Assembly: GCA_037576195.1 (NCBI GenBank)
Contig: CM075103.1
Location: 2,108,001-2,172,000, forward strand
Direction: 5' to 3'
DNA from: Phytoseiulus persimilis
Taxonomy: Eukaryota > Arthropoda > Arachnida > Mesostigmata > Phytoseiidae
Length of the DNA: 64,000 nucleotides
The translations under genes and the position numbers were made by a program. Positions 17,508-43,800 of the stretch are shown piece after piece (positions within the stretch are counted from its first letter, which is position 1; every line of letters begins with the position of its first letter). The notes under the pieces are model-generated. The model was not told the DNA's origin and did not search any database. It was given only the letters and a program-made list of their open reading frames with translations.

Positions 17508-20500
17508 ATGATAAGCCTAATTGGCACACTCAGAGGTTTGCTCAAAATCAAACCTGTCCACATCGACGGAGTTGTGTTCAGACTCCACCATGGGCCGACC
17601 GTTGTACTCCTTCTCGCCTTCTCGGTACTCATCACAACAAAACAATATTTCGGTAAGTGAGACCGATTGAGTGGACACTACCCATCGTTATGATAAAGAC
17701 GAAGCATCGTTCAGAGATATATATTCAACGAACAAGCTGCGTACGCTCCGGAAGTCGGGAGGGCTCGAGACCCAGAGGCGGAGCTGAACCTTCTGTCGAT
17801 GGAAATATTTGAGCGTTGTGGAGTGGGAACTTTCGCCGGAATGACCGCGGATCTTCGCACAGCGGCTAGAATGCTTCTTCTCCCGGAGTGGCTTCCAGGC
17901 ATATGCGAACCCTAGCGAACGGCCAGACATCGATCAGAGGGGACCATTCCGGGTTGCCTGCCATAATATGATGTCTGGTACAGCTGCAACTCAACATCTC
18001 GAACGTGGATCTGCATTGCGATCCAGATTGGAACAGTTTATTGAGCTTTGTGCCGCAGGCTGGATTGAATCACACTCACAACGCAGCATGCGCTCTGCGC
18101 TACTCGTTGCCGCCTGATCCGGTGACGATAGTGAGAACGACACATTCTCTCCGGAGCGTTTCGCGAAAAAGCATCTCGAAAGGTGGATCGACGTGGACAG
18201 CCCGACGCGCTCCTTCGAATTCAAGCGACGGCAAGAGGGAAGCCTTCGCCTCGAGCCGGACATCTCAGAGACCATGAACCGCGCTCCGGAAGCTGCGCAA
18301 AACGGTCGTCGGCAGACTATGCGAATTCAGGCTTCCGGGTGTCCGTATCATTCTGAGGTTGCGATCTTTGGTGTTCCTTGAATTCCTCGAGGATTCCCGA
18401 GACATCCTACTGACCCGGTCGTCGTTCACGCACGCGGCGTGGTTTTTTAATTCCGCGGACCGAAGGCGCTCTAATAGAACGGCATGCCTCCAGGCACCCG
18501 ATCACTGGGGACAAATCGTCGATGGAGGACGGAGTACGAGGACACAAACACACGCGTATTCAAAACGACAACGACACGGGCAGGGTAAATCGAGCCCGGA
18601 AGCTCGAACAGAGTTCGAAATTGTTGCCCACGTCTGCCGCTCCGTGGATCCCGCCACACCTCAGATCAATCATAATATGCCACGCAAAAACGACTGCTTC
18701 CCCACGCTTCGGAGTCCGCATTGACTGACAACCCGTCTAGCGAAATTGGCGCAATTTAGATTCGAATCTACAACGAGCGCCTCTGTTCGAAGCGCTGCTC
18801 ATCACGTCGGAACTTCCCGATGGAAATCCCCCGCCGATTATTCAGACTCATCCGATGGATAAATAATCATCCACATCGGACTACGATCCCCGTCGGGAGG
18901 GTGACTGCTGCTGCTTCGTGATTCGGCAAGAACTCCCAACACACCCTCAATTCTCATTCCAGGTGATCCAATCGATTGTGATATCTCCGGCGGAGCCCCC
19001 AAATCGCTGATGAATCTGTACTGTTGGATACACGCCACGTATTCCGTGAAATCGCTGTTCAAGAACGTGGACGGTGTTGAGGTGGTGTACCCAGGAGTGG
19101 GTTCATGGAAGGGTACGCCACCAAAACAGTACGGTCAGCAGGGAGAATACAAGTTCCACAAATACTATCAGTGGGTTTCGCTGATGTTGTTCTTCCAGGT
19201 GAGCCAGATCTGAGCGAGATACTCGTTGATTCCCATATGTTTGCTGGACACCTTTTGATTCATGAATTCTCCACGATCCCACGCACGGGAATCGTTCTAG
19301 GGCAGCGATTTTCTTATGAAACAGCATTCGACTGCATCGCAAGCGTAGAGTGTTCTGACTCTGATTGTTTATGCTCGAAAATCGGATCCCTTGCCGCGAC
19401 GGACTGACAAGTCGCTATGTTTTTGTGTTCGCGAGCCTCCAACGCTGCCCGCCCCTTCAGCAGCCATCTTTCCGACCGGAGTACCGGAGCTCGTCCCGAT
19501 TGCCGGAGCTTAAACCAGCCTCTCCGGGTACCCAAGGGGCTCCGCGAAAATTCGAGTCTCTTCGTGGCTGAATCACTGAAGATCGGTTCTGGGCCTCTCC
19601 ATCGAAATGAGCTTGCCACGACAAAAGACCAACGACGAGGCGACCAATTGAAGAGCCTAGATTCAAAACGTCGTAGTGCCGAATTTCTCAACGTTGAATT
19701 TCTTTCCGTCAGTCGGAACTTCATCGATTCGGTTTTCGACAACATTATTTTACGTGTTTTTTCCGGAAACGCCCCACTCCTTGCACTTCCCCTCGTTTTG
19801 CACTCACAAGAGAATGACAAATAACGTTCTCGAGAATCCGTTCGGTGAATTTCTGACTGAAAACTCGACTTTGCTCGATGTCATTGGAAGCGGCGGTCTC
19901 CGGATCCGAATGTCCGAGCTCGAAGCGAGAGTCTCGAAAGATCTATTCCGGTCCCGTATAGATCCCGCAGTTACACTTATAATTTCGCTCATTTCAACGG
20001 ACGTTCAGCGTTCACTTGCCGTGGATCAAACTCGGGAACTCTCAAAGCTTACGAAGACTCGGGGCTTGCCTGCTTCGAGAGCTTTCGCACGGCTGGGAAT
20101 CGGGAAGAAATCACTCCGTTCCCCTGGTCTAGATCGGGACCTAAGCCCGTTGACCTTTCGACGGGAGACAATTGATCCGACGAGCTTAGACAGAGAGGAT
20201 TTCCTTGCTCAACTCCAGTCGCAACCAGAGCTTCGGCGCCAGGCGTAGTGGACCGACTTTCGGGAATATCTTATTTGTTAGCATCTCTCACGGGCATCTT
20301 TCGTCCAGCAGTTAGTTTCTCTTCCTTGGGTATTACGCCCAGAGTCGAAGCCGTTTCCGAGCTGCATAAAATTTATCATGTTGGGCAAAAGTTTCTGTGC
20401 TATTACTCCGACGATCGCTGGATGATCGAATCGTTTATTGCAAGTCCTGATGAACGCGGAAGTTGTTAAAAGTGTGTTTTTTTTTCCGACGAATTTGTAG

Positions 20501-23500
20501 CCCCTGTTCGTCGGACGCAACAACCCGACCTACAGCGATTTGGAGATCACACCTTTTTAGAGCTCCCATGACCGAGAGTGAATCGGGGGCTTTTTCGCGA
20601 GTATGTCGGTATTCCACGCCGCACTAGAGTCTCGCTCTGTTCGAACTAGCAGAAACCGCGGTTCGCAATAGCTTCCAAAATAGTGGCTCATTTGGCGTGT
20701 CCTGATGTTCAAGGGATCCGGAGGAGATAACGACCCGGACAGCGGATGGAAAAGTTTGAAATTCGTTCTGTGAAACGTTAAGTCACGTTATACGTAGAAA
20801 TGCAAGTTTCTGATTCCTTATGGTGACGAAGATTGACAGAACTATGGGAATGTTTGCTTTCGCACACAACCGTAACAAAGAGACTGATCGACGGTGAATG
20901 ATGTGCTGCTCAAGCTTGTCAGCATTCTCGGACCACTCTGATGATAAGGCAGTTCATTCAAGCCGCTGGAGCACGACGGCTCAGTCTACTTCGTCCGTTG
21001 GGGTCCGTTACATTTCAGTCGGAAGTCGGAACTGTTCATATGGAGATGATTTGCGATTTTTGTCGCGCCGCTGGAGATTTGAAACTTCTTTAAGAGTTCT
21101 CGGGCTCAGAATCATCACAGACAGATGTTCAAGCCCGATCACACGGCGACTTACACGGGAATTTATTCGATGTCCCCAGCGGAATCTGTTTGTTAGGGCG
21201 GCGCGGAAGAAAATCGGAATCTTCCCGACCAGGCACCGACAGCGAGGGGTGTATACTCTCGGGAATCGAGGAGAAGAAGTGGGAGAGGCTGTTCTCTGTC
21301 CACGGTCCAAGTCCGAGATCAGGATTACGACATGATGTTGGCAAACCCACGAGTCATTTGAAAGCAAAGCGGAACTGAACTCCACCCGGAGAACGGTGCT
21401 CGCCAACGCACACAATGCTGACGACTTAATTCACGGGGATGAGCACCTGTGTCCAAATGAATTCTTGCCTAACACGAACAAGAGACTTAGGGCTCGAACC
21501 CCACTCGGAGGAGCCGTCGACCCAGCGCCAGTATTTCTCATCGGAATGTCGCTACTTGATTGGGAATAATCACCTGCTTGGCATCTGCCACCTACGTTGT
21601 GATTCGTTGTGACTTATCCTCCTTCCTCAGGCCGTGTTATTCTACACCCCACGATGGATTTGGAAAGCTTGGGAGTCCAGACGTTTGGAGAACCTCCTGA
21701 CTCCCAGGGAGCCTTCCGAGACAGCCAGGTCGATCTGGACAGGTGCTTTCAACAATTACATGTTCCGCTACGTCGCTTGCGAGTTCTTGTGTCTGATCAA
21801 TGTGGTCGCACAGCTGTTCCTCATGAATCGGTAAGAAAAGTCTCCCCCCAGGCGTCCCAATATTTCCCCCGAGAGTCATGGAATGCGCGGAACTAGATGA
21901 ACTAGGAAGCTTGAGGAGTGATTGTCACGTGAGAATCTGAAATTTTGGCGTTTTTCCGTGACCATGTTCCCGTGATCGGTTTTCCATCATGATTTTTCTC
22001 CGCCACACTCAGGAGGGCCCGGTAGCCGCGGCTCTGTTTGAGGAGAACGTGCGAGGACTCCTTCCACTAGTCTCTGGTCCCGCCGAGGGACAGCGCGTCG
22101 ACTCACATTTCGAAACGGCAATGTTCGCTAGAATGGCGGAACAGAACCACCCGACTTCGGGGGGCTCGCACTTAAATCGATGAGCGGAGCTGGACTGATT
22201 CGATCTCGTCAAATTCAGATTCCTCGACGGGGAGTTCACTACGTTCGGCCTGGACGTGCTCCGGTTTTTAGATGAGTCGCCAGAACTTCGAGTGGACCCG
22301 ATGGTGAGAGTGTTTCCCAGAGTCGCCAAGTGCCATTTCCAGAAATTCGGTGCCTCCGGGAACGTCGAAACGCACGACGCGGTCTGCGTTCTACCTCTGA
22401 ACATCATCAACGAGAAGGTTTGTACATTCATTTTAATCAACTTCACTCCGATCGCTGTTCGGAGCAGAAAAATAACGTCCGAGCAATCCCTGCGGCAAAC
22501 TCTCTCCCAGGAGCTCTAACGCCGTAATTAATATGGATCGTCGGTCGAACGATTCCACACAATCGAACCGCTGTTGCCTCAGGTACACGCGTTCGCGCAC
22601 GGAGTCTGGGTCTTATCTCCGGCGCGGCGTACCATTCCTCCCGATTCGACCCCGCCGAACATCTAGGAAACTTATCTCCCTAACTACGTCCTTCATGGAA
22701 ATACAGAGATATCATTCTGAGCGAGGGATTTCTGGCGCGATCAATTCAACTTCCCGCGATCTGGGTGTGCTCTGAGGAATTTCCTGGAAGACTCACACCA
22801 GCGTGCAAGGAGTAGATTCGGGTGATGGAATGCGGACTTTCCGCGAGTTTGTCCTTCGCTTGCCGCGTCGAATCAGCGTGCGCAGAGGGCACGGCATTGT
22901 CCGAAAAATTACCTATCACGCCCCGGGCGTCACCCGGTACTTGCACGCCACTGCCGTTGTTGCCGCGTATCCCAAAATCTGGAGCCGACGACTCTCGTTC
23001 GGAGAGTTCATTCTATTCAGCCAGAGAATGGAGCTCTCTGAGCTCCACGTAAACGAAACTCAAATCTTTCTGATGATCATAAATTGTTCAGAGCACCTGT
23101 TCAACGAGCACCGTGGAGGGTGTTACGAGAGAGAGGTCATCACCGTATTCCGGGTCCGATGGGTCTTGGTTGCGCTAAAGCAGTGATTCATTCTTCCCGC
23201 GGCATCAACCCATACCAGATCACGAGGTAAACACAGTCATTTGTATTCAGCCGATGATACAATGCCATTATTCAGGTTTACGTGTTCTTGTGGTTCTGGA
23301 TGTGGATGCTGTGTCTCCTGACAATATTTACCATGATATACCGCATGGTTCAGCTCTTCACCGGAGGTGCTGTTCGCGCTCGTCTGATGAAATGGAGGTT
23401 CTATTATGTACCAGAAGTCATGCCCGTGAGTACGAAGGTCGCTCCTTAGTGTCACGTATAGCGTACAAGGCTCGGCTGGATTTCATATCAGTTTTTTACC

Positions 23501-23719
23501 TCGTTTCCTCGGCCTCCTTCCTCGCATCACGAGTTCTCCCAGTAATTTATTTTTCTCCCGAAGGCGGTTCGCGACTGCTCGGCCGGGCAGAGCTTCGTGC
23601 TCTACATGCTCGGCAGGAACATGGACACATCGAATTTCGTCGATGTCCTGCATGAGCTCAATCGACTCCAAGGCAAAGCGCCCGGATACGAGTCCGTCTC
23701 CAGAGAAGAGAAAATGTAG
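17508..23719 (+). CDS. Innexin (gap-junction protein), six coding exons
   Basis: Innexins form invertebrate gap junctions and hemichannels: four-pass plasma-membrane subunits that pass ions and small molecules between cells. Coding exons are 17508-17652, 18963-19198, 21631-21830, 22219-22417, 23276-23425 and 23564-23719. All use GT-AG sites and join in phase to give 361 aa, a normal innexin length. Seen in the protein: membrane segment 1 at about 29-48; loop 1 with paired cysteines C54 and C69; the innexin signature YYQWV at 116-120 opening segment 2; segment 3 at about 172-192; loop 2 with C232 and C250 in the typical KCHF...CVLPLNIINEK context; and segment 4 at about 261-285 (VYVFLWFWMWM). 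The start ATG lies 11 bases after an acceptor, so at least one 5' untranslated exon is upstream. Introns are 1310, 2432, 388, 858 and 138 bp. Subtype (inx2-like or other) cannot be fixed without alignment. No damage is seen. Confidence 0.97.
21484..21556 (-). repeat. Degraded tRNA-like segment in innexin intron
   Basis: On the - strand a B-box-like GGGGTTCGAGCCC (complement of about 21489-21501) lies about 57 bases after a weak A-box start, GTAGCGAC. The B-box neighbourhood (TCGACGGC ... GGGTTCGAGCCC) resembles the element at 13690-13775, so this may be an old copy of the same tRNA-derived family. No target-site duplication was found. Confidence 0.25.
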
Positions 23720-36637: not shown

Positions 36638-36643
36638 TTTATT
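36638..36643 (-). terminator. AATAAA overlapping the stop codon of the small secreted gene
   Basis: On the - strand the TAA stop (36644-36642) overlaps AATAAA (36643-36638), which continues into a run of A. If used, the mRNA would have an extremely short 3' UTR. A downstream signal could be used instead. Confidence 0.45.
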
Positions 36644-37737
36644 AGGCTCTTTTTCTCTTCAGGTAGGCGAGCGATTGCCCAACGTAAGCGGCGACATATC
36701 CGGTGCCTGTGTAGTCCTGTGAATCAAGGGAACAAAGAATAGTTTCAAAAAGATTCGCCCGCCGACGCAGCCAGCGCACATTCCATTCAGCCGTACGCGT
36801 GCCCGTTTGTCTCAGAACATCCCTTGGACGCAATAACGAAACCGGTCGGATACAAGTCAATCGTGAATGATCAGAGGTACCACTGGGCGAGAGATCATGG
36901 CGTTCGGTATCGGTGGATCGTTCCGCAGCGGGACGACATTATGAACGTGCGCTAGAGCAGCGGCGGCCTCATTGTCCTTGTTCGGTGGCCAGGGTCACTC
37001 AGGTCGCCGATGCGGCATGCAATCGTGCACTACTTCCTCTTCCTACACATCCCCTCAGATGCGCGAGAGCGGCCAGAAGCCAATTGAGCCACCTAAACCG
37101 AGCTCATCCGGGTAGAGGAGTTGCTAACGCCTTCACGGTTATAAATATTCCCTCCGCCATTGCACATACATGCGTACATTCGTACAGGCTGCGAACCAAC
37201 CGACAAGCACATCCGACACATCCGTGCGCGTCTATTAGTGGAGCCTCGTCGCTCCACGCGATACGGAGGAGAAGTGACTGGTTCAAGACAAGTTCAAGAG
37301 CAGATCGTTCCGATCGGTAGAGGGAAACCGACAGTCTGGATTGTTGATGTGAAAAGTCGGTGAACACTCACAGGTCGCTGTAGCAGAACTTGGTGGGGAG
37401 CTTGATTGTATCGAGCTGGAAGCTGTTGCCATGGAAGTGCGTTCCCGACGGCGTACCCAACCGTAACTTCCTCGGATGGCAAGTAGTAGTTCGCGTACGA
37501 TTGTTGACAGAGAGAGCCTAATGGGGTCATCGATACGAGAAGCATAATCTGCAATTTCGGAGCGACGGTCAATCAATGAAGTTCTGACAGGTATCGCGCG
37601 GTACCTCCTGCCATCCATTGTTCGAACGAACACGGACGGCGTGCTGCACGATCGAGAACATTACATATCCTCGAGCACAAATCACATGCTCTCCAAGTCT
37701 CAATGGATAGGTTTGTACTCACGTGGACGACGCGCAT
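36642..37737 (-). CDS. Small secreted protein, 88 aa, three exons; family not recognised
   Basis: Exons on the - strand are 37737-37723 (ATG plus four codons), 37548-37372 and 36716-36642. All three join in phase 0 with good donors (CAC|GTGAGT, CCT|GTGAGT) and acceptors, the last with a long pyrimidine tract before CACAG. The joined protein starts MRVVHIMLLVSMTPLGSLC, a clear signal peptide, so the product is exported. The mature part of about 69 residues is Tyr/Gln/Ala-rich, has no cysteine and holds YTGTGYVAAYVG. It ends LKRKRA, a dibasic run that could be a processing site. The first intron splits the signal peptide after five codons, as in many arthropod cuticle-protein genes. A TATA box and initiator lie upstream. 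A structural cuticle or matrix protein, or a peptide precursor, are both possible. I know no matching family. Confidence 0.62.
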
Positions 37738-37762
37738 CTTGTCGAGCGGGAATCCGCACGGC

Positions 37763-37795
37763 TGACTCAACGAGACGAGAACTTCCTCCGATATA
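37763..37795 (-). promoter_or_regulatory. Core promoter of the small secreted gene (TATA + initiator)
   Basis: On the - strand TATAT starts at 37795 and an initiator-like GTCAGCC has its A at 37763. The spacing of 32 bases is typical for TATA-driven arthropod promoters. The predicted 5' UTR is only 26 bases, ending in CGACAAG before the ATG. This supports the very short first coding exon. Confidence 0.55.
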
Positions 37796-39095: not shown

Positions 39096-40844
39096 CTAGA
39101 GACGTCGTTCCACACGAAGAGGAACATCCCCCTCGGGGCACAAGCTGACGTTCACCAACTTCCGCTTGGGAATTTCCTGCGTCGGCGCCGAAAGCTTGAG
39201 TTTGTAGTTTTTCAAGATGTGCGCGAGATTGATTTTCATCTCGAGAAGAGCGAATCGTTTGCCCATGCACATTTTCGCCCCCACCCCGAAAGGCAAGTAA
39301 TAGGGTTGAGTGCTAGCGTTGCTGTCGATAAAGCGCTCAGGCTGGAAGCTTTCGGGCTCCGGCCAGAATCTGGCGTCCATGTGGATCTCCATGACTGCCG
39401 CCTGAACTCTCACTCCTTTCGGTATGGTGTAGCCGCCGACCTGGACGTCCTTTTTCCCCAACCTCGATACCATCGTAATAATGGGTGGATGCATTCGCAG
39501 CGTCTCCAGCAAGAAAGCCTCTGTCCGCTTCAGTTTGCCTACATGCTCGTAATTGAGCGGTTCGTCGGTGTCCCAGACGGCACTTATTTCAGCGTAGAGT
39601 TTCTCCTGCTCTCCCGGATGCTTGGCGAGGAGGAACGATGCCATGGTCATTGTTATTGCTGTGGTTTCGTATCCCCCAAGGAGGAAAAGGAACGCGTTGG
39701 CAGCTATGTCGTCATCCGTGATTTGGTCGTCTCCGCTCTCGGCGGCATCAATCATGAGCTGCAGCATGTCCTCCATTTTGATACCGCGCTCTTTGCGCTT
39801 CTTCAGCACCTGTTTGATGTTGTCAACCAAGCCGATCATCATCTCGTGAGCGCTGGTGAATCTGGAATCGGGAGCAGCGTTAGCGAAAGATCGGCGTCAC
39901 TGATTCGGATCCTGCGGATTCCGGTTCCGACTTGTGAAAGTATCAAGGGTTCAGAATCAGGAATCACTCACTTGGAGAGCGCAGTGAGCATTTTTTCGAT
40001 GGTCGGAACCCCGCAAGCGAGATGGAACATGAAATGTTCCGCGTTTGCGAGGAATCCCCGCACGTCATTCAGGAGTTTATCTTTGTCATCTCGCAGACAG
40101 TTGATCTTAGTCGCGAGAGCGCAGCGCGCGATGACGTCTAGCGTGACTCTCTGGCTCAAATCGAAAAAGCACGTGGGCTTCCCAGCGTCGGCACTCTCGC
40201 CTATCACCTGCGGAAGTTCAACATTAGTTCGCGTAGTTATTTTTCTTGAAGCCCTTCTCGAAGCTCCTCTCGTTATCAGCACTAATCTCGGATCCCCTTA
40301 CGTTTAACAAGGTCCTCGACGAGTCGTTCATGAGATTCATCATGAACTTCAGCTTTGATGCACTGAACGCTGGCGCCAGCACCGACCTGACCCGCTTCCA
40401 TTTCTGATGCGTGAGGAACAGCAGGGTCTGCGACACCGGGTAAACTAACAAGGGTATGGGTGGTCTCTCGTCAAAGACAGAAACGTTCTTCATGAAAACT
40501 TCTTTCACCATCTCAGGATCGCAAACATTCACAAACGGAACATCTCCGATGAAGTGGCCGAAGATTGGGCCGTACTGCTTCGCCCATTCCCGTACTGCTC
40601 CGACTGGATTCTTTTGAATGGTCCGGTGGTGGCCGAAAATGAAAGAATCCGCTTTGGGGGCCGGGATCCCCCATCTCTCGAATTGTTGATGCCGATACCG
40701 TCTCTGGACAACCCATCCGATGAGGAGGGAAGCGACCACTGAGCTCCACCAAAGAGCGAAAGCGTTGAGAACACCGATTTCTCGCAAGAAATCCGTCGGA
40801 TGTCTGTGGTGCAGGCTCTGCACGAATTCCACGATGCCGTCCAT
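39096..40844 (-). CDS. Cytochrome P450, CYP3 clan, microsomal, three exons
   Basis: Heme-thiolate monooxygenase that oxidises lipophilic substrates with electrons from NADPH-P450 reductase. CYP3-clan enzymes commonly act in xenobiotic or hormone metabolism; the substrate here is unknown. Exons are 40844-40302, 40207-39972 and 39861-39096. GT-AG introns are 94 and 110 bp, joining in phase to 514 aa, a full-length P450. Seen in order: N-terminal membrane anchor at about 25-47; hinge WGIPAPK at 58-64; helix C WKRVR with W149 and R153; helix I GGYETT at 322-327; helix K ETLR at 379-382; PERF at 434-437; heme loop FGVGAKMCMG at 451-460 with ligand C458. The usual Arg two residues before the Cys is Lys (K456). 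CYP3-like character rests on helix I and the C-terminal pattern. The ATG at 40844 is the first in frame, in a good context (GCCATGG). The gene looks intact. Confidence 0.97.
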
Positions 40845-43800
40845 GGCTTGAGTGAAACGATGCAACGCGAGCAAGCTGAATATTCCGCAGTCCGAGTGGG
40901 GCTTATCGTCTCGATCAAGATACGAGGATTAGGTAGATATTTATCAGAGCGGAGAACATCAGTCTAGGGATGGCGTGCTTTGAATCCTAACTTTTGAGGA
41001 TCGCCTAGCGACATGGCGGGCGCGAACGGTGCGGATACCTCTAGGTATGGAAGCCCTCGTCGTAGAATGACCCGAACGCTTGCGGGTTGAACAATATTTG
41101 GACAAGTCGAACAGCGCGGCAAGAGCGTACATCTCCGATGGCTTAGACAACGGAGAGCTCATGGCATCAAAAATATGGTTGAAGGGCAGGAGCTCTCTTC
41201 GAGCCGGTTCCCGCGAGATCACGAGTTTCTAGTGGCAGCTCCCCAAATCCACGCGATAAAACCCGACTTTGAGGACAGCGACCGGTTATCGAATAGCTAT
41301 AGGAGGGATTGACGTAGAGAGGATTACAGGAACTGTCCTGAAGCGTACTTGTCGGAAGCGTAGCACACAGTCTTTCTTGACGACTCCTTTGATCGAAGCG
41401 GAGTCCCTCCCCAAAACGAGTATGCGCTCTGAAGTTTCGGCCCGGTAGTATGAACTTCCCGCATCCGAAAGCCCTGCAGGAGCAGTCTCGCTACGGGCGA
41501 TACGAGGCTCCAAAATTAGAGGGTGGATTGTCCTCAAACTTGCATGTAAAACCAGTGTTGGGACGGCCGATGCCAAGCGAAGCGAGATAAACTCCTCCGA
41601 ACGTTGGAAGGAACTGATCGGTTATCCGAAGGTTCTTCTGCAGGAACAGGGGGCGGAGTTCGGTCCAGAGAGAATCTCGAACTTACTAATACTCAGACGC
41701 GCGCTTTGGCTTGTGCAGAGACCCGAAGGTTCTAAAAGTATCTAGTCATGGGCACCCACGTTGCTCTCCTACCCTCGATATTCGGGACACCCCCGGAATA
41801 CGCGAACAACTGCACGACGAGCTCTGTTGGAAATGCTGCGAACAGTCTGTGGGATTGATTAGCAAACCTTTTGATGATGAATGACCATGTATAACCTATA
41901 TACGACTTGCTGCATCGTAATGGGGTTCGGAGCGATCTCCTCAGCTGTCAGCGGAACGTGGGTTCCGGTGTTTTCGAAATCGTTCCGAAAGTCGCGATCC
42001 TCGCCTCGTGACACGGTGTGGAAGCCCCGCTCGTGACCTCGAGCTCGGAGGGGGAAGGAGCGACGGAAGTTTGTTCAGTCTGCCGCTCTCGTACAACTTC
42101 TTGAGAACTCTGACGTAGAGTCCTGCTGAACCTTGGAGCGAGTTCTTGGACCGGAAATCAAGTGGCCGGGATCGACCTCGGAGACCCATTCCGACGTCAG
42201 AAACTCGATATGAAGGATCCATCTTTAGAGGGAAGGGCGGGATGGACAAAGAGATAGTGACTTCGGGAAGGACGGGCTCGGTTTATGAAGCTGATAGTCT
42301 CTGATTCCGTCGATGACAGCCGCGTTCGCCCACAAAAAGGCGAAAGGAAACGAGAAATTTTCCCTCGAGAAACAGCGTAGCCCAGAGGATTGGTGCGTCC
42401 AACCGGAGCCGGCCAACCGTCATCGTTCCCGTTTTCCCCTTCACATAATATTTTCGCTCGCCATAGACTCCATTATAACGGTTCTCAATTGTGAAATTTT
42501 TATTCCAATCGGGAACGACGAGAGTGCCGCAATTTCTAACGTCCGATTTCTTGAAGTGTTGATTGTAGAGTTGGTCGACTAGACATGTCTCAATCAAAAC
42601 TCTTTTACGTGCGACTGCATCGTTTCTGAGAACTAATGGACTCCACTACGGATGTTTGCCCGACGCCGGGCGAGACGGGTGATGGACCCACTAGAATCGA
42701 ATGTCCCGCCAACGAGTTCCGTTGCCCCTTGGCACGGCGGGGTGGAACACGTCATTATTCTTCTCCTCGCCATGACCAGAGTTCTCTAATCGGCAGTGAA
42801 GCTGAAGACTTCCATTTTTTTGCCTCATTTTTGTTCAAGTTCTTCCAATGAATGTGATTGAAGCTCCCCCATGATTTCGCCGTCCTCTTCGAGGGGAGAG
42901 TTTTCACCAGAATCCAAGGGAACGCCGAGCGGAGCGAAGGTGATTGGGTGGCTCGAACCAGAATTATTAATTCAAGGAGATTTTCGAGTGGGGGAAACTT
43001 GCGGAGAGCTGCCGTCCATCTGAGCACCGCGAATCAGAGCTTCTCAGGACTGCCCCCGTCCTCAAAAATGTTGAAGTACTTGATCATCATGGCCGACCGC
43101 TAATATTGTTAACATCGTTCCCCCGGGCGGCTTCATTAAAACCGTAAACGGCTCACTACGCCGAGAGACTCATGTCAATACCCAGAATTATCGGTTCAAC
43201 TCATAAATCGATCCGTGAATACAGCTCACTCTTATCGGAGTGAGGAGAACCTCTGAGAGGCTTCGGGGACGGGGAATGCTTTCTCCGTTGCGTCCGCAGA
43301 GCGTGAATTTTGGATCAGGAACATCCAGCGCACTTTCCAGCCAGCGTGAGGGTTCCGAGTTTGCGGGAACGGAAACTCCTTGAAGAGAAGCGAACGAACG
43401 GGAGAAAAAGACGTTGTTAATAATAGCGCAGCCGCGGAGCCCGAAAATCCCCGGTCGCTGGATTGAACTGGACTGGCTCCCCCAAGCTCCCTCCTAACTC
43501 ACTGGTATTGCTTACCGTCAGCCTTCCGATAGTAGCCATTAGCTTCCGATCTCACCCGGCGGAGGAGGGAAACATTCTCAGATCCACACGGGCGCACACA
43601 TGGTCCAAACTCGAAACTTATTGTCAAAGTGCCGATGCGCGGTTCAAAGTGTTTGGGATCGCTCAGGGGATCGGCTTCGGCAGCATCGTTTGCCGGAACT
43701 AGGCGAGAACGATCACCCCTTCTTCCTTTTTGAAGTTCAAGAATCTACGGGGAATTTACAACGACGGGAGCTGGAGAACGCGAGGCCCGTCTCATACACG

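Follow-up and report, generated by a model that had tools for sequence, protein, structure and literature searches.

Do three short exons predicted on the minus strand of a 64-kb stretch of DNA make up a genuine gene for a small secreted protein, and if so, where did the front end of that gene come from? The stretch (hereafter the window; G000:C3:2108001-2172000, G+C ∼52%) is part of a 181-Mb genome in 127 contigs. An initial annotation had proposed a spliced, TATA-driven gene of no recognised family. Its account of the structure largely stands; what it missed is that the stretch from the TATA box into intron 1 is homologous to a dispersed transposon.

Direct reading of the minus-strand exons and joining by script (Table 1) gave 88 codons plus TAA with both junctions in phase 0, which confirms the three-exon structure and predicted 88-residue precursor as annotated. 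The joined precursor reads MRVVHIMLLVSMTPLGSLC / QQSYANYYLPSEEVTVGYAVGNALPWQQLPARYNQAPHQVLLQRP / DYTGTGYVAAYVGQSLAYLKRKRA, where the first slash marks the predicted cleavage site and the second the junction of exons 2 and 3. Upstream, the spacing between TATA element and initiator and the length of the 5′ UTR are as described. The strength of the TATA box was overstated, as it reads TATATC, a weak match. The signal peptide had been called textbook, and this too goes too far: it is plausible, with a histidine in the hydrophobic stretch and a proline near the predicted cleavage site. At the other end, the AATAAA is overlapped by a genomic run of ten A at 36640-36631. Since the stop codon, the AATAAA and the ten-A run all overlap (36643-36631, minus strand), any 3′ UTR would be predicted to span no more than a few tens of bases.

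Table 1. Features of the candidate gene, in the order in which they would be transcribed, and the transposon-like block; positions are those of the window.
Feature	Position	Strand	Basis or remark
TATA-like element TATAT(C)	37791..37795	-	32 bases upstream of A+1; 37793-37791 lie within the transposon-like block
Initiator-like TCAG (context GTCAGC), A+1 at 37763	37762..37765	-	aligned TCA in 13/27 transposon rows
Predicted 5′ UTR, 26 bases	37738..37763	-	start site inferred
Exon 1, coding part, MRVVH, phase 0	37723..37737	-	sequence reading and join
Intron 1, donor GTGAGT, acceptor TTGCAG	37549..37722	-	sequence reading and model scan
Exon 2, 59 codons: remainder of signal peptide, bulk of mature chain	37372..37548	-	codon score -5.5 bits, towards non-coding by a model of housekeeping genes
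Intron 2, donor GTGAGT, acceptor TTCACAG	36717..37371	-	sequence reading and model scan
Exon 3, 24 codons plus TAA, ends LKRKRA	36642..36716	-	codon score +5.6 bits
AATAAA overlapping the stop codon, within TAATAAAAAAAAAA	36638..36643	-	direct reading
Block with homology to the subterminal part of a pogo/Tigger-type (DDE_1) DNA transposon	37705..37793	-	BLAST and profile

How often would such a structure arise by chance? Both strands were scanned for models with GTRAGT donors, YAG acceptors with a pyrimidine minimum, products of 60-200 residues and a start at least as hydrophobic as the candidate's. Three-exon models qualified at 1 of the 1842 ATGs on the two strands of the 64-kb window. Adding a TATA box, an initiator and AATAAA as requirements left the candidate as the sole model in the window. 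Two- or three-exon models with TATA, initiator, hydrophobic start and AATAAA occurred in none of 200 first-order Markov shuffles, and no equivalent model was found in 130,771 bases of other loci from the same genome, some of them overlapping and some transposon copies. Relaxing the rules let models through: in 1.5% of 200 shuffles with a weaker hydrophobic threshold and AATAAA dropped, in 2% of 100 with TATA and AATAAA both dropped, and in 5% of 100 when TATA was kept and the signal-peptide rule and AATAAA were dropped. These shuffle rates understate chance and flatter the candidate, because the thresholds were modelled post hoc on it. Shuffled sequence thus seldom yields such a structure, and chance does not readily account for it. 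Dropping the AATAAA rule in the window also lets the same start yield a two-exon model of 89 residues, which runs on through the second donor.

The front end of the gene has a relative elsewhere in the genome. When the promoter and exon 1 were searched as DNA against the whole genome, one other place was found (C2:11046820-11046899; 76% identity over 80 columns, E 2e-7), and a search with the whole gene matched elsewhere only in exon 1. A paralogous gene at this place was considered and rejected; the match is a decayed old copy of a transposon. A 22-base pattern of the shared core, allowing up to three mismatches, occurred at 47 places versus 21 for the reversed control, and among 30 places that were cut out, 15 besides the window were assigned by reading to one dispersed repeat. 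Searching with one transposon copy gave at least 40 places (40 of 56 candidates scored). The best-preserved pair compared, L068:5526-9889 and L070, have ∼4.4 kb in common; other copies match in parts, and the ends of the element are bracketed only at about L068:5526 and 9889. Over 416 aligned columns the C2 and L068 copies share 69% identity, and other copies are 68-83% identical. A frame inside L068 encodes a DDE_1 transposase (PF03184, E 4.3e-41), which identifies the dispersed repeat as a pogo/Tigger-type DNA transposon. A Tc5-type helix-turn-helix frame in L049 was not counted, as its coordinates place it beyond the element's end. L070 and L071 (G000:C3:24.23-24.25 Mb) show transposon ends at a 9-kb spacing, beside direct repeats ∼2 kb apart, and a long frame in this direct-repeat region looks gag-like.

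The extent of the homology was delimited with a profile of one end of the element, made from 26 copies and built without the C2 copy, which is the closest. Its best match in the 64-kb window was 37793-37705 (15.7 bits, E 4.3e-5), compared with a best score of 8.7 bits in 40 shuffled windows plus one reversed window. Locus L069, meant as a further control, contains the transposon, which accounts for its scores of 651.5 and 46.5 bits. The block covers three of the five TATAT bases, the initiator, the 5′ UTR, exon 1, the first donor and the first 18 bases of intron 1, and it ends before exon 2. By alignment it is homologous, beyond chance, to the subterminal region of DDE_1 transposons in the same genome. 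The locus differs from pogo/Tigger copies in that only ∼90 bases are recognisable, with no transposase or element ends detected.

Comparison of the window with 27 aligned transposon rows indicates what may have changed. The start codon is ATA in 26 of the 27 rows and ATG in one (L064). At the donor, where the window has GTGAGT, 23 rows read ATGAGT and none has GT. The start codon and the splice donor could thus each be explained by one A-to-G change. Ten bases are common to the window and the C2 copy (L003) alone and are absent from the 26 other rows. The pattern agrees with the incorporation of a transposon fragment into a gene. It agrees too, if less simply, with a transposon having picked up the front of the gene, and also with a spurious model lying over a relic. 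An 18-base stretch with TCTCATTGAGTC is present in the window, is wholly or mostly kept in 15 of the 27 rows and is missing from 12; the DDE_1 transposon thus comes in two kinds of copy, with and without it. The TGAGTCA in the transposon resembles an AP-1 site.

What would the product be? The predicted mature chain of 69 residues is rich in tyrosine (13%), alanine (13%) and glutamine (12%), has a pI of 9.3 and, as had been annotated, lacks cysteine and ends in LKRKRA. A secreted, tyrosine-rich, Cys-free basic protein is plausible, its secretion being predicted from hydrophobicity and small residues only. The composition and signal-like start suggest that a matrix or cuticle-type extracellular role is most likely. 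The annotated absence of a recognised family holds up: with E allowed to reach 10, Pfam listed no family (most matches above 0.1 being removed by the filters of the program), NCBIfam listed none either, and a PDB search gave nothing significant, its three weak enzyme matches (E 0.19-0.96) being taken as chance. Searches of its own 181-Mb genome that used the full protein, exon 2 alone or exon 3 alone and allowed E values as high as 10 found only the candidate itself. Among prokaryote genome contigs, 47 pattern matches included none confirmed as a homologue. Orphan small secreted protein genes share these properties: they are short, occupy a single place, open with a signal-peptide-like start and lack a Pfam or NCBIfam family and a significant PDB match.

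The nearest comparison is with the CPR cuticle proteins (PF00379). The candidate resembles them in being probably secreted, rich in Tyr, Ala and Gln and free of cysteine, with a TATA-like promoter. Unlike them, the candidate has no PF00379 match: the Rebers-Riddiford chitin-binding domain was absent in the Pfam search, and the 112 places that the genome listing gives for PF00379 do not include the candidate. The initial annotation had likened the position of intron 1, inside the signal peptide, to that of many arthropod cuticle genes. This likeness is not established; in the one CPR gene read (L075), signal peptide and domain lie uninterrupted in one open frame, with TATAAAG 90 bases before the ATG. 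That gene ends in SRKRA, and the tails ALSYAGSRKRA (L075) and SLAYLKRKRA (candidate) share a C-terminal RKRA. RKRA-stop patterns occur within 600 bases downstream of at least 2 of the 112 CPR places, with ∼0.055 expected, a lower bound since TGA patterns were taken from 100 of 241 places. Of the two among the matches listed, one belongs to L075 itself, which gave rise to the test, and in the other the RKRA pattern and the CPR domain lie in different frames. RKRA as a C-terminal mark common to cuticle proteins is therefore unsupported and was rejected. An RKRA ending is unique to the candidate among the window's 1858 open-frame tails. Similarity over the whole tail is weak, its score being equalled by 24 of those 1858 tails and by 567 of 20,000 shuffled tails.

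On a codon model trained on 2186 codons from five long frames, the complete coding sequence scored +1.4 bits in total, or +0.016 per codon, with the two larger exons pulling in opposite directions (Table 1). Stretches of 59 codons average +0.18 per codon when coding (n=117) and -0.18 in random open frames (n=905), the coding mean being flattered because its stretches come mostly from training genes and the rest from a P450. Exon 2 scores -0.09 per codon, a value reached in 18% of the 905 random stretches and as low in 1 of the 117 coding ones; on synonymous choice alone it falls in the lowest 4% of random stretches. The P450 and innexin frames of the window, which lie outside the training set, score positive. 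A genuine cuticle gene of the same genome scored -0.006 per codon over 125 codons, so the model appears blind to the cuticle class. The best 40-codon stretch reaches 0.15 in that gene versus 0.07 in the candidate, and tyrosine is encoded by TAC in 6 of 7 cases in the one and 8 of 9 in the other. The poor score of exon 2 was accordingly dropped as a refutation of the gene, as the full-length score of the genuine cuticle gene is similar. The codon evidence is roughly neutral: the coding sequence lies between coding and non-coding, near the cuticle gene.

Which reading do these results favour? Tentatively, and at somewhat short of an even chance, we take the locus to be a real single-copy small gene for a secreted, Tyr-rich, Cys-free basic protein of matrix or cuticle type, whose start derives from a DDE_1 (pogo/Tigger-type) relic, with transcription, splicing, secretion and the direction of transfer all predicted. 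In its favour, the sole other genome-wide place with the exon 1 region is a decayed copy of the same transposon. Yet a spurious model could likewise have its start inside a transposon relic. It is quite possible, if less so, that there is no gene at all, and that chance open frames and splice-like sites happen to adjoin a relic holding a TATA box, an initiator, an ATG and GTGAGT. The repeat-like first exon, the non-coding range and poor synonymous usage of exon 2, and the absence of relatives from the sets searched (own genome, Pfam, NCBIfam, prokaryote contigs) would all be consistent with that. However, no such model appeared in the 200 shuffles or in the other loci; the codon test is one that a true cuticle gene also fails, and the preference for TAC tyrosine codons is shared with that gene.

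A gene may also be present in a form other than the one modelled. With a different promoter, translation could begin at the in-frame ATG that is the second codon of exon 2 (MLLVSMTPLGSLC...); alternatively, intron 2 could stay unspliced, giving 89 residues with exon 1; the exon 2 frame is indeed open past the second donor (a 92-residue open frame). We consider this improbable. A product lacking exon 1 would have a short hydrophobic stretch with no basic start, the read-through version has no AATAAA near its stop, both donors are full GTGAGT, and exon 3 scores as coding. Slightly less probable again is the reverse direction, in which the gene is older and the transposon family captured its 5′ end. 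Capture would account for homology that barely exceeds the start region plus donor, and for the ten bases held in common by the window and the old copy L003 alone. Against it, the block sits inside continuous transposon sequence in the copies compared, and an ATG or a GT donor is almost or wholly absent from their aligned rows.

If our preferred reading of a gene begun in a transposon relic is correct, an old DDE_1 fragment would have supplied the initiator context and 5′ UTR. Single changes in the fragment would correspond to the ATG and to a strong 5′ splice site, and the new splice site would join the transposon-derived start to two unique exons. The product would be secreted and most likely deposited extracellularly, as part of a matrix or cuticle. 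A more specific version of these events is rather less probable: that the gene is young and encodes a secreted structural protein, and that a transposon insertion gave previously unique DNA both transcription and a signal-peptide beginning, the whole front end, from initiator and 5′ UTR to start codon and first donor, arising from the fragment through few point changes. Orphan secreted genes and transposon-derived first exons are both known kinds. As in exonization and exaptation of first exons and promoters, a repeat fragment here holds the start region, the ATG and the splice donor; unlike those cases, the candidate is predicted from sequence alone. If real, it would illustrate on a small scale the way in which a new gene for a secreted protein can acquire its start, with few changes needed in a relic that already held an initiator and a near-splice-site. 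If it is not, the locus is a warning to be wary of promoters and first exons predicted within the remains of repeats. In addition, the failure of one genuine cuticle gene in a simple codon test suggests that gene finders may miss such genes.

The window also contains an innexin and a cytochrome P450 gene which, with the 112 listed PF00379 places, point to an arthropod as the likely source. No tRNA genes were found in the 64-kb window and no Rfam families between 34 and 41 kb. An innexin (gap junction) gene occupies 18905-23716 on the plus strand, where four open frames match PF00876 above the cut-off in order and a fifth matches weakly. On the same strand as the candidate, a cytochrome P450 gene of at least two exons (39099-40928, minus) ends ∼1.3 kb upstream of the TATA box.
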